64,000 nt of DNA, taken from Chloroflexi bacterium ADurb.Bin180. Its GTDB lineage: Bacteria; Chloroflexota; Anaerolineae; UBA2200. Position numbers and translations under genes: made by a program. Of the stretch, positions 17,203 to 22,453 are shown in pieces (within the stretch, counting starts at the first letter, position 1; each line of letters opens with the position of its first letter). The stretch lies in the NCBI GenBank assembly GCA_002070215.1, contig MWCV01000001.1, forward strand, positions 62,001 to 126,000, read 5' to 3'. The notes beneath the pieces were generated by a model. The model had not been told where the DNA came from, made no database searches, and was given only the letters and a program-made list of their open reading frames with translations.

Positions 17203-17355
17203 TTACTTCTTTCTGGCGTTGTCCTCTAGCATTTGCTGGAGAGCACGCAGTTCTGTCTCCAGGCTGTGCAGGCGGCGAGCAATGGCCAGGACGTACACCA
17301 GGACGGCGAGCCAGATGATGGCGAACGCGGCGAATAGGTAGGTGAGATTGCTCAT
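17203..17355 (-). CDS. ccmD: CcmD-like small membrane protein
   Basis: A 50-residue protein between ccmC and the DUF2085 gene. It has a single N-terminal membrane helix (YLFAAFAIIWLAVLVYVLAI) followed by a short charged helix (RRLHSLETELRALQ) and a basic tail. Size, topology and position match CcmD, which in System I releases haem-loaded CcmE from the CcmABC complex at the membrane. The ATG at 17355 has GGGAGT upstream. CcmD proteins are poorly conserved, so the call rests on topology and gene order. Confidence 0.75.
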   Translation of the reverse strand: MSNLTYLFAAFAIIWLAVLVYVLAIARRLHSLETELRALQQMLEDNARKK

Positions 17356-17385
17356 CAGCGAAAGACTCCCATAGGTCAAACCGCT

Positions 17386-18066
17386 CTATTCCGAGAGGTA
17401 CTGATCCCTGAGTTGCGCCAGGCGAGCCTGCAGGGATTCCAGGCGTACCCTTACGGTTAGTAGGCAAAAGTACAGCAGCGTGAATGTACCGAGTGAGATT
17501 AGCAGGGTCAGCAGCATCTCCGGCGCCAGACCAAAACCCTCCGTGGTGAAAAGCACGGGGTGGATCGTTCGCCAGAGGCGAATGGTGAGGAAGACCAGGG
17601 GTACATTGACAAAGCCGACGATGGCCAGAACGGCCCCAAAGCGAGCACTGCGTTCGGGACTGTCGACCATCTGGCGAAGTAGCAGGCTGGCCACGTAATA
17701 GATCCACATCACGAGAGTTGTCGTCAGGCGAGGGTCCCAGGTCCACCAGGTGTTCCAGATGGGTCGGGCCCAGATGGAGCCGGTGATGAGCGCCACCGTG
17801 CTGAAGACGATGCCCAGCTCGAGCGAGGCTACTTCGACTCTATCCCAGTGCTCCTGACGACGCGCCAGGAACAATAGAGCGGCCACTGCTGCCACGGCAA
17901 AGGCAAGAAAAGCCACCCAGGCCGATGGCACGTGGAAGTAAAAGACACGCTGAATGACACCCATGGTCTTTTCCGTCGGAACCCAGACCAAGACCAGGTA
18001 CAGACTGGCGAGCATGGCCAGAGTAGTCAGCATGATCAGGACCGTCAAAAGCCTGTCTCTTGACAC
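17386..18066 (-). CDS. ccmC: Haem exporter subunit CcmC
   Basis: A 226-residue membrane protein with six predicted helices and the tryptophan-rich WWTWDPRLT motif near residue 108, placing it in the haem-handling protein family. Histidines flanking this loop (for example FHVPSAW near 44) are the expected haem ligands. CcmC attaches haem to the chaperone CcmE on the outer face. The start is GTG 18066, with GAGGA eight bases upstream and only three bases after the ccmB stop. Confidence 0.93.
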   Translation of the reverse strand: MSRDRLLTVLIMLTTLAMLASLYLVLVWVPTEKTMGVIQRVFYFHVPSAWVAFLAFAVAAVAALLFLARRQEHWDRVEVASLELGIVFSTVALITGSIWARPIWNTWWTWDPRLTTTLVMWIYYVASLLLRQMVDSPERSARFGAVLAIVGFVNVPLVFLTIRLWRTIHPVLFTTEGFGLAPEMLLTLLISLGTFTLLYFCLLTVRVRLESLQARLAQLRDQYLSE

Positions 18067-18069
18067 GGG

Positions 18070-18744
18070 TCATTCCTCAAGTACGTAATCAAAGCCGAGT
18101 ATGGCCACGACCAGAGTAATCGTATCCACAGCGAGTAAGAGGCGTATCCATAAGTATACCTCAGAGACAGGGCGCTGGTCTAGCAGCAGCCCGGTGGATT
18201 TCGTGGCAGCGATAAGAATAGGAACAGTGGCCGGGAAAAGAAGCAAGGGCAGCAAAGCTTCCCGGGCGCGTGTGCTCACCGTCATCGTGGAGAAAAGAGT
18301 GCCAGCCGCCGAGAAACCAAGCGTTCCGAGCAGAATGACCAGCCACAGCAAGGGAATCGCGACGTTCACGCCAAAGAGAACAGCAAAGAGCGGGAGCACA
18401 GCCGCCTCGCTGAGCAGCATATAGAGCGAGTTGGCCACGAACTTGCCCAGGTAGATGACACTGCGCTCTACCGGGGCCAGCATCAAGCCTTCCATACATC
18501 CCGACTCGCGTTCCTGAACCATTGAGTGGTTGAGGGCCAGAATCCCGGCAAAGGTGAACGCTACCCACAGCACTCCCGGCGCGAGCTCGGCAGCGTTGTC
18601 AACGCGCAGCTCGAAAGCAAAGTTAAAGATGACCACGACGAGCAACGCAAAGACGAAGGAAGTGCTAAGGGTTTCTCTGGTGCGCAGCTCGACTGTGAGG
18701 TCCTTCCGGACGATGGCTGCGATTCCGCGCCAGGCGTTCTTCAT
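18070..18744 (-). CDS. ccmB: Haem exporter subunit CcmB
   Basis: A 224-residue membrane protein with six helices, the permease partner of CcmA. It has the family opening RKDLTVELRTRETLS and the motif ERESGCMEGLMLAPVERSVIY near 85-105. With CcmA and CcmC it drives ATP-dependent release of haem-loaded CcmE. The start overlaps the ccmA stop in an ATGA, which favours this ATG over one 24 codons upstream inside ccmA. Confidence 0.93.
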   Translation of the reverse strand: MKNAWRGIAAIVRKDLTVELRTRETLSTSFVFALLVVVIFNFAFELRVDNAAELAPGVLWVAFTFAGILALNHSMVQERESGCMEGLMLAPVERSVIYLGKFVANSLYMLLSEAAVLPLFAVLFGVNVAIPLLWLVILLGTLGFSAAGTLFSTMTVSTRAREALLPLLLFPATVPILIAATKSTGLLLDQRPVSEVYLWIRLLLAVDTITLVVAILGFDYVLEE

Positions 18745-19475
18745 GATTGGGCCATCTGTTCCTGATACATTCTGGACAAGGCCTCGCTGGAGGCGCCGTG
18801 GGCCGGCAACTGACACAGCAACCGTCCACGGTCGAGGACGATTACCTCATCCAGCAGACCCGATACCCACGTCAGATCATGAGTGGTGAGCAGGATGGTA
18901 CAACCCCGGGTGCGCAAGTGATCAATAAGCCCATTCAGGATCTCAGCAGCGCGCTGATCGAGCCCGGTGTAGGGCTCATCCAGAAGCAATACGGATGGTG
19001 AATGGAGCAGACAGCGGGCAAGGGTCAACCGTTGTTGCATTCCACGTGAGAAGGTGCGCACAAAGTCATTACGACGAGAATAGAGCTCGATCAACGTGAG
19101 CAGTTCAGCGACCCTGTCCCGGGGTGAGCTGACTCCATAGAGATGAGCGTAGAAGAGCAGGTTTTCGGCAGCGGAGAGCTCACCATGAAGCATTGGCTGG
19201 TGGGTGGTTAGGCCAATGGCTCGGCGGACTGCATCGGGGTCTGACTGAACGTTCCAGCCGGCTACACTGACGGTGCCGCTCGTTGGTCGAAGAAGGGTGG
19301 AGAGCACGCGGAGCAGAGTGCTCTTGCCGGCGCCATTGGGACCAAGTACGGCTACACACTCACTGCGGGGCACTTGAAGGGTGACGTCTCGCAAGGCATG
19401 AACAGCGCGAAAAGATCTGCCGAGGCGGCTGGTCTCGATGGCCCAGCACACTGGGTCAGGGGATAGCGGGTTCAT
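18741..19475 (-). CDS. ccmA: Haem exporter ATP-binding subunit CcmA
   Basis: A 244-residue ABC ATPase. Walker A GPNGAGKST lies near residue 45, the Q-loop in GLTTHQPML near 92, signature FSRGMQQRL near 140 (SRGMQ in place of LSGGQ, as usual in CcmA), Walker B VLLLDEP near 160, and H-loop TTHD near 195. It powers the CcmABCD complex. The gene overlaps the end of ccmF by 20 bases and the start of ccmB by 4, so the cluster is tightly translationally coupled. Confidence 0.93.
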   Translation of the reverse strand: MNPLSPDPVCWAIETSRLGRSFRAVHALRDVTLQVPRSECVAVLGPNGAGKSTLLRVLSTLLRPTSGTVSVAGWNVQSDPDAVRRAIGLTTHQPMLHGELSAAENLLFYAHLYGVSSPRDRVAELLTLIELYSRRNDFVRTFSRGMQQRLTLARCLLHSPSVLLLDEPYTGLDQRAAEILNGLIDHLRTRGCTILLTTHDLTWVSGLLDEVIVLDRGRLLCQLPAHGASSEALSRMYQEQMAQS

Positions 19476-21441
19476 CCTGGGCCTCGTGCCGCGCGGCAGA
19501 ACCGGGCCACAGAGCGAGCAAAGTACCCACTAGCAGCAATCCCGCGCCGAGCCACAGCCAGGAGACGAGTGGGTAGACGGCAAGGCGGAGCGTGGCTATG
19601 CCTCCGTGCTCTGGCCACTCCAAAGCAATGTACACGTCGTCGATCAAGGTGCTGCGAATCGCGACTTCGGAGATGTACTGGGCAATGCTATAGTGCAAGT
19701 TCTTCTCGGGGCGCAGCACGGCGATGGGTGACTGACCTCGGTACAATGACACCGACGCGATGTTGCGCTGAGAGTTGCGGGTGTCGACAACCTGAGACCC
19801 CTCGTACTGCACCACATAGTGGTGAATGCTGGCGCGTTGGCCGGGTAGAAGCTGGACCGTCGACTCGGTCTTGAAGAGAGAGGAGCCAGCGATGCCAACG
19901 GCGACGATCAGGATGGCGAGGTGAACCATCCTGGCTCCGTAGGAGCGGCGATTGGCAGACCAGAGGCAAAGGAGCTCATGAAACGGGTTACCTGACCTCT
20001 GCTGCAACCTGTGGAGCACCGGACGAAGCGCGTCTCCAAACAAGCTGGTGACCGCGAAAGCAAGCAAGGAGTAGGCCAGTAGTGCCATGGGCTGGTGTAC
20101 CTTGAAGAGCACTAGTGCCACCATCGTGAGGATGGCCACCAGGGCGGGAAAGCGAAGGCGTTCGACTAGTCTGGCCGGGGATGACTCGCGCCAGCCTAGA
20201 AGTGGGCAGATGCCGAGTAAGGTGACCAGCACCAGCGCTAGGGGCGCAAAGATGCGGTCGTAGAAATCCACAGTCAGAGTGATCTTGGTCCCCTGAATGA
20301 ACTGAGTGAGGTTCGGGAACATCATTCCCAGCAGGATTGCTGCTGCCAGGCCGATCAGGAGCAGGTTGGTGATGAACAGACTGGATTCGCGGGATAAGAG
20401 GTGTTCTGTGGCCACCTCGTCCACGACCTGGTTTCGTCCTCGATAGAGCAGGACTGAGACGAGTCCGACTGCGGCAAGCAGAAAAACCAGCAGGTAGTGG
20501 GCGATCGGCTGGACAGTCTCGGCAAATCCATGCAGGTCGGACGTCACGATACCGCCGCGGGTGACCAGCGTGGCCAGGACGCACAGGAGAAAGGTGGCGG
20601 CGCTCAAAGCAAGGTTCCAGCGGCGGAAGATACCCCGTCGTTCCTCTGCTAATAGTGAATGCAGTTGTGCTGTTCCGATGAGCCAGGGGATAAGCGATGC
20701 GTTCTCCACTGGATCCCACGACCAGTAACCACCCCAGCCCAGTTCGACGTAGGCCCACCAGGCACCGATGGCGATGCCTGCCCCCAGGAAGAGCCAGCCG
20801 AGCAGGCTCCACCTTCTGAGTGACCTGCGCGATTCTGGTGACGATTGGCCTGCCGCGAGCGCAGCGATAGCCATGGCAAAAGGCAGCGTGTACGCCGCAT
20901 AGCCGAGAAACAGGGTTGGCGGGTGAATGATCATGGCCGGGTTCTCGAGCAGCGGCGACATTCCCAAGCCCTCTGGGGGCGTGGCGGTCATCATGAAGAA
21001 TGGATTCTGGGTGGTGACCAGCAGCAGGGTGAAGAAGGCGATAACAGCAGAAAGAGTGGCCACAGTGTAGGGCCACAGGCGGTCGGGGCCATGCCGCCGG
21101 TGCAGCAGGAGTGCCACTACTGCAAAAAGCCCGATGAACATAGCCCACAGGAGTAAAGAGCCCTCTGCGCCAGCCCACAGCGCCGAGATCAGGTAGATGG
21201 TTGGCTGATAGGTACTCGCGTGGCTATATACATACAGCGATTGAAAGTTGCGGCTCAATAGCAGGTATAGCAGAGAGCCGGTGGCAACCACGACCAGACC
21301 GGTTGCCAGACACAAGGCATCCTCAGCTCTGGCCAGCCACGAGGGTCGTGAGGAACGCGCTGCTGCCAGGGCGGCAGCCGCACTGACAACGCCCAAGACC
21401 AGGGCAAGGACGAGGGCCAAGTAGCCGATCAGGGCGGACAT
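19456..21441 (-). CDS. ccmF: Cytochrome c haem lyase subunit CcmF
   Basis: A 661-residue protein of normal CcmF length with about 14-15 membrane helices. The WWD haem-binding domain GGYWSWDPVENASLIPW is near residue 238, and the ENPAMIIHPPTLFLGY motif near 165 is also typical. Histidines around these loops are expected haem ligands. CcmF takes haem from CcmE and joins it to the CXXCH motif of apocytochromes outside the membrane. It is followed in the same operon by ccmA and preceded by ccmE. Confidence 0.95.
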   Translation of the reverse strand: MSALIGYLALVLALVLGVVSAAAALAAARSSRPSWLARAEDALCLATGLVVVATGSLLYLLLSRNFQSLYVYSHASTYQPTIYLISALWAGAEGSLLLWAMFIGLFAVVALLLHRRHGPDRLWPYTVATLSAVIAFFTLLLVTTQNPFFMMTATPPEGLGMSPLLENPAMIIHPPTLFLGYAAYTLPFAMAIAALAAGQSSPESRRSLRRWSLLGWLFLGAGIAIGAWWAYVELGWGGYWSWDPVENASLIPWLIGTAQLHSLLAEERRGIFRRWNLALSAATFLLCVLATLVTRGGIVTSDLHGFAETVQPIAHYLLVFLLAAVGLVSVLLYRGRNQVVDEVATEHLLSRESSLFITNLLLIGLAAAILLGMMFPNLTQFIQGTKITLTVDFYDRIFAPLALVLVTLLGICPLLGWRESSPARLVERLRFPALVAILTMVALVLFKVHQPMALLAYSLLAFAVTSLFGDALRPVLHRLQQRSGNPFHELLCLWSANRRSYGARMVHLAILIVAVGIAGSSLFKTESTVQLLPGQRASIHHYVVQYEGSQVVDTRNSQRNIASVSLYRGQSPIAVLRPEKNLHYSIAQYISEVAIRSTLIDDVYIALEWPEHGGIATLRLAVYPLVSWLWLGAGLLLVGTLLALWPGSAARHEAQDEPAIP

Positions 21442-21462: not shown

Positions 21463-21894
21463 CTATCTGGTGGCTGTCTGAGTGGCGGCAGCTTCATACT
21501 TGGAGGGGCACTTGAGCAGTAGTTTGGTGGCTCGGAACAGGCCGTCTTCACCGTACTTGCCTTCGACCAGGACCTGGGCCTCATCACGGAACATATCAGG
21601 CTGGGCACCCTTGTACTGAACGGGCAGAGTTAAGGCTCCATCGTAGAGGGTAAAGTTCAGGGTGAGGTCGCTGGCATTAAAGATGATAGAGTCTCCGGCT
21701 ACATTGCCGCCTACCCTGACCCCCTGGCCGTAGATGGCGGGGCGGCGGTCGTGGAGTTCCTGAATGGTCAGGGCATAGACAACGGACCCACGGGTGCTGC
21801 TGATGATCAAGTAGACAATCACGACCAGAATGACTGCTGCAGCGAGATACAGCCGCAGCCGCCTTTGTTTGCTGGTTGGATGTGCGGTTGGCAT
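21463..21894 (-). CDS. ccmE: Haem chaperone CcmE, CxxxY type
   Basis: A 143-residue protein with an N-terminal membrane anchor at about residues 15-33 and an OB-fold domain (GVRVGGNVAGDSI, then LNFTLYDG, LPVQYKG, VLVEGKYGEDGLF). The haem-attachment site is Cys129 in CPSKY. In ordinary CcmE this position is the histidine of HxxxY; cysteine variants are known from sulfate-reducing bacteria and archaea. It ferries haem from CcmC to CcmF. GGAGG lies upstream of the ATG at 21894; the frame is open 36 codons further but lacks family similarity. Confidence 0.9.
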   Translation of the reverse strand: MPTAHPTSKQRRLRLYLAAAVILVVIVYLIISSTRGSVVYALTIQELHDRRPAIYGQGVRVGGNVAGDSIIFNASDLTLNFTLYDGALTLPVQYKGAQPDMFRDEAQVLVEGKYGEDGLFRATKLLLKCPSKYEAAATQTATR

Positions 21895-21976: not shown

Positions 21977-22453
21977 CTAGCGCAGCAGCGGCTCAACCTC
22001 ACTCTGCAGGAAGGACTGGGTCATGGCGCCGACGTGGCGCTTGACGACCATTCCTTCCGCATTGATAAAGAGCGTGGTGGGGAGAAAGCGGACGCTGTAG
22101 GCTTTCATGAACTCTTGTTCCGGGTCGGTGAACATCGGGAAGGTGAGCTTGCGACGGCTGGCGAACTTGGCGACCTCCGCCCCCGATTCGCTGACATTGA
22201 CACCCAACACGACGAGGCCTTTGCCCTGGTATTTTTGGTGCACGGCTTGGAGGGCAGGCATCTCGCTCCGACAGGGGGCGCACGAGCTGGCCCAAAAGTT
22301 GAGCAGGACTACTTGGCCGCTGTAACGGTCCAACTCGGTCTGGGTCAGGTCAGGGATATCGGAGTCCTCGCTGGCGCTGGAGGCACAGGCAGTGGCAGCG
22401 ACCAACATGAGAGCGAATAGGGCGAGGCAGCAGCGGAAGGTGCGTTTGCTCAT
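21977..22453 (-). CDS. TlpA/ResA/CcmG-like thioredoxin lipoprotein
   Basis: A 158-residue extracytoplasmic thioredoxin-fold protein. The signal ends in ATAC (lipidated Cys23). The redox motif C58-A-P-C61 sits in NFWASSCAPCRSEMP, and the cis-proline is in RFLPTTLFI near 128. In ccm clusters such proteins keep the CXXCH cysteines of apocytochromes reduced (the CcmG/ResA role). Its ATG overlaps the stop of the preceding CoA-binding gene. No electron donor such as CcdA or DsbD is in the window. Confidence 0.88.
   Translation of the reverse strand: MSKRTFRCCLALFALMLVAATACASSASEDSDIPDLTQTELDRYSGQVVLLNFWASSCAPCRSEMPALQAVHQKYQGKGLVVLGVNVSESGAEVAKFASRRKLTFPMFTDPEQEFMKAYSVRFLPTTLFINAEGMVVKRHVGAMTQSFLQSEVEPLLR

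Follow-up and report, generated by a model that had tools for sequence, protein, structure and literature searches.

The window analysed, a stretch of 64,000 nucleotides from a Chloroflexota genome, contains a cluster of cytochrome c maturation (Ccm) genes, all transcribed from one strand in the order TlpA-like thioredoxin, ccmE, ccmF, ccmA, ccmB, ccmC, ccmD, DUF2085 protein. All coordinates given for the cluster are on the minus strand. The ccmE gene (21463..21894) encodes a haem chaperone of 143 aa. It is followed by ccmF (19456..21441), encoding a 661 aa haem lyase with the WWD motif WGGYWSWDPVENASLIPWL and matches to CcmF_C (4.6e-57), Cytochrom_C_asm (4.6e-38), and TIGR00353 (9.6e-119). 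The ABC ATPase gene ccmA (18741..19475) matches ABC_tran (4.4e-31) and, at 134.6 bits and over its cut-off, the TIGR01189 ccmA model. The haem exporter permease gene ccmB (18070..18816; CcmB, 8.7e-39) and ccmC (17386..18066; Cytochrom_C_asm, 5e-31; TIGR01191, 5e-42), which encodes a WWD-type haem delivery protein, come next. The small membrane protein encoded by ccmD (17203..17379) is at most 58 aa and matches TIGR04391 CcmD_alt_fam over its cut-off (5.4e-12); this member of the cluster had been left unmentioned by the first-pass annotation. Directly upstream of ccmE is the gene for a ResA/TlpA-like thioredoxin lipoprotein (21977..22453; AhpC-TSA/Redoxin) containing the sequence WASSCAPC, which is a candidate CcmG. 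Its closest NCBIfam model is ResA, with a score of 112 bits, under the curated cut-offs for ResA and for DsbE/CcmG.

The CcmE open reading frame starts MPTAHP, with an AGGAGG-like ribosome site ahead of the start, and the protein has a membrane anchor at its N-terminus followed by a full CcmE domain. The match to Pfam PF03100 (5e-27, 94.5 bits against a curated cut-off of 24.6) spans profile positions 2-98 of 99. The C-terminal haem site reads LLKCPSKYEAAATQTATR, where LLKCPSKYE contains the CxxxY motif C129-P-S-K-Y133. Among solved structures the best matches are all CcmEs (8ce8, 1sr3, 1j6q, and 2kct), the last of which is the Cys-type CcmE of D. vulgaris (PMC3884852). In the alignment with 8ce8, KCPSKY lies over KHDENY, thus Cys129 (codon TGC, 21508..21510) replaces the haem-binding His of the classical CcmE. 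The same CPSKY is present in the other three CcmEs found in the family, therefore the Cys is not a sequencing error. The coordinates and the motif given for this gene in the first-pass annotation were exact, and the host is from the phylum that it had proposed.

No ccmH is present in the cluster, as had been noted previously. In relatives that have CcmH its gene is usually directly after ccmF, and the order E-F-H is found in G005, G022, G013, G196, and G126. Here, the start of ccmA overlaps the end of ccmF and nothing lies between them, which leaves no room for ccmH at its usual place. A whole-assembly search with PF03918 found no CcmH, and a search of the whole genome with NCBIfam models found no CcmI; these searches had been suggested by the first-pass annotation, which looked to a ccmH elsewhere, together with a second, HxxxY-type ccmE, as evidence against its reading. 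The genome-wide search found a single copy of CcmE, that of the cluster. Whole-genome searches for the System II protein ResB/CcsB (PF05140) and for the DsbD/CcdA-type membrane domain (PF02683) were also without a match. The CcmH, CcmI, ResB, and DsbD/CcdA searches each detected their own family in several control genomes. The cluster has a thioredoxin-like candidate for CcmG, yet the genome has no PF02683 match for its reduction.

Six genomes of the same family were searched for CcmH and none has a match. The three other CcmE loci of the family have the order E-F-A-B-C-D with no recognised CcmH; one of these (L181) has a gap of approximately 1 kb between ccmF and ccmA. In two of the six (G252 and G254, of the same family and same genus as the window) there is no match to CcmE, and one of these two is 96% complete. 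The Ccm system therefore seems to be dispensable in this family.

The assembly is in 170 contigs and is 95.36% complete, thus single absences are not proof and a ccmH located away from the cluster might lie in the missing part. It might also be that a CcmH needed by this system has diverged too far for PF03918. In family f30, ten Cys copies of CcmE are from genomes without a CcmH match, yet a diverged copy (1.5e-12) was matched in one genome, and forms of CcmH with altered Cys patterns do exist. However, PF03918 detects such altered forms in other genomes, the place usually taken by ccmH is closed by the overlap of ccmF and ccmA, and CcmH is missing from the whole family sample rather than from one assembly. 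A CcmH that is present but was missed is therefore considered improbable. Less probable still is that the cluster is a relic or is moonlighting, its CcmE and CcmF no longer making c-type cytochromes and its Cys a sign of decay, since the small number of clients (one dihaem protein in the single cytochrome family searched genome-wide) and the family members without CcmE have to be set against reading frames that are intact throughout the cluster, WWD motifs retained in both CcmF and CcmC, a haem-site motif conserved across the family, and the abundance of CPSKY across many phyla.

The cluster very probably encodes a complete, streamlined System I* for cytochrome c maturation, with a Cys-type CcmE and no CcmH. 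By homology, CcmE would receive its haem from CcmABCD on the outer side of the membrane. Its Cys129, in CPSKY, would serve as the haem site, in the role of the classical CcmE His, probably through a labile covalent adduct to a vinyl group of the haem, and Tyr133 is a possible iron ligand. Covalent haem on Cys129 is not to be assumed, because for the D. vulgaris CcmE the reported binding of ferric haem by its Cys is non-covalent (PMC3884852). From CcmE, the haem would be passed to the CXXCH of the apocytochrome by CcmF alone, without CcmH or CcmI, and the thiols of the CXXCH would probably be kept reduced by the adjacent ResA/TlpA-like thioredoxin. The genome-wide search gave no DsbD/CcdA homologue that might donate electrons to this thioredoxin. 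There is precedent for such reduced systems. The Ccm operon of Desulfovibrio, which is without CcmH and CcmG, is functional in E. coli (reviewed in PMC3601427). In Methanosarcina acetivorans, CcmABCEF are enough and the Cys of CXXXY is required for haem attachment (PMC9084895). A dihaem c-type lipoprotein with CSGCH and CASCH, encoded elsewhere in the genome (G000 contig C5, 41061-41537; L179, 6987-7952, minus strand), is a likely candidate client of these Ccm proteins. It is the only match to the Cytochrome_CBB3 family in this genome.

A sample of 251 genomes was drawn from the Chloroflexota. CcmE is present in 172 of these and CcmH in 132. The haem site was read from the CcmE loci of most of the CcmE-bearing genomes, giving 161 readable copies, and is Cys in 134 and His in 27. 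About two thirds of the Cys copies (88 of 134) are from genomes that have CcmH and the other 46 are from genomes without it. All 27 His copies are from CcmH-bearing genomes and none from genomes lacking it. Cys-CcmE is thus the common state in the Chloroflexota and is no predictor of CcmH absence. A CxxxY CcmE should therefore not be taken as a sign that CcmH has been lost, as had been assumed. The first-pass annotation had presented the CxxxY CcmE, with loss of CcmH, as defining a variant system, known from sulfate reducers and archaea, whose occurrence in this phylum would extend or test the pattern. The motif, the absence of ccmH, and the phylum all stand; CcmH loss as the definition does not, given the 88 copies above and that the absence of CcmH is stated not to be characteristic of System I*, being true of some members only (PMC3601427). 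Nor is the occurrence in Chloroflexota an extension, since Cys is the common form among the 251 genomes and Chloroflexi had been reported by Stevens et al. 2011.

The fifth position of the motif in the 134 Cys copies, as tabulated per family, is Tyr in 74, Phe in 54, and another residue in 6, these last reading CPSRL or CASKQ. Some Cys-type CcmEs are thus without an aromatic residue at the Tyr position, including those with CPSRL in G145, G161, G225, and G233 and with CASKQ in G066. One of these genomes, G225 (77% complete, 5% contamination), has two CcmEs, a His-type with HSSVY and a Cys-type with CPSRL. These are at L132 (contig C6) and L137 (contig C8), and each has a CcmH of its own a few kb away. 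Either the organism naturally has two systems or the bin is contaminated.

The CcmH found beside a Cys-CcmE often has an altered set of Cys residues, either CPVC with a second pair in CPTEAC, or CQCGC with CDC, rather than the single CxxC of the classical protein. Examples are at L188 4953-5699, L255 2809-3450, L193 4794-5255, and L251 3291-3791, and there are similar cases. Loss of the CxxC from CcmH beside a Cys-CcmE was considered and rejected, as the alignment shows that most merely have a different Cys pattern.

A CcmE tree was built without the motif residue from 121 columns, which is too short for a firm tree. This tree requires no fewer than 2 changes at the haem site and no fewer than 8 in the presence of CcmH, and 5 changes of the Cys-without-CcmH label are forced by well-supported branches. 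CcmH absence is confined to Cys lineages. Dependence of CcmH loss upon Cys cannot reach significance, because the tree needs only 2 changes between His and Cys. It is conceivable, if on balance a little doubtful, that Cys at the CcmE haem site was a permissive step before the loss of CcmH, which was then lost several times in Cys lineages, with the Chloroflexota holding forms that lie between classical System I and the type seen in archaea and Desulfovibrio. Compensation by CcmF for the missing CcmH was rejected. Columns 358, 380, 392, and 610 (numbering of the window CcmF) seem to be conserved where CcmH is present and relaxed where it is missing, but on the CcmF tree this pattern tracks a few lineages and no column is significant in independent pairs. 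Column 610 comes nearest, with 3.5 pairs for, 0.05 against, and a median p of 0.125.

Beyond the Chloroflexota, a scan of public genomes for relatives of the [LAV]KCPSKYE type gave more than 500 confirmed stretches. The best 80 of these are from Chloroflexota, Acidobacteriota, KSB1, Latescibacterota, Aerophobetes, Methylomirabilota, Bacillota, Neomarinimicrobiota, Calditrichaeota, Armatimonadetes, Gemmatimonadota, and Zixibacteria. When 50 such genomes, picked by hand from the scan results and not a random sample, were searched whole, CcmH was above the curated cut-off in 29.

The Cys-CcmE locus itself is therefore to be expected in the Chloroflexota and it is the phylum-wide census that is the useful part. 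Its additions are modest, being that CcmH absence occurs with Cys copies only and that Phe is frequent at the fifth motif position. Cys with CcmH, Cys without CcmH, and His with CcmH are found side by side in this one phylum, making it a good place to ask which change came first. If the lack of any His-type genome without CcmH were also true in other phyla, this would suggest that Cys came first and permitted CcmH loss. The phylum is also suited to asking why, in laboratory experiments, the His and Cys sites cannot stand in for each other.

Compared with known systems, the locus lies outside System II, having no ResB, and outside classical System I, with neither the haem-site His nor CcmH. It does share homologous CcmA-F with the E. 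coli CcmABCDEFGH system, and its CcmE aligns over the whole domain with the His-type 8ce8, but here Cys replaces the haem-binding His and no CcmH, CcmI, or DsbD-type protein was found in the genome. The Chloroflexota clusters that have both Cys-CcmE and CcmH, such as those of G005 and G022, are of the same phylum (and in G005 the same class) and have the Cys site and adjacent ccmE and ccmF, although there ccmH follows ccmF and here it is absent. The archaeal system of Methanosarcina acetivorans, CcmABCEF, likewise has a CXXXY CcmE and is without CcmH and CcmI (PMC9084895). It differs in that its CcmF is split into CcmF1 and CcmF2, whereas here CcmF is single and CcmD is present. The locus belongs with System I*, known from Desulfovibrio and other bacteria, on its Cys-CcmE, its CcmABC(D)EF core, and its absence of CcmH, although a ResA/TlpA-like thioredoxin adjoins here and the Desulfovibrio operon is without CcmG. 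In their review of System I*, Stevens et al. 2011 described Cys-CcmE from Chloroflexi and Firmicutes, for the most part with CPSKY, and found CcmH to be present in roughly one third of the genomes (PMC3601427). The present finding is therefore already covered by that review in kind, phylum, and motif.
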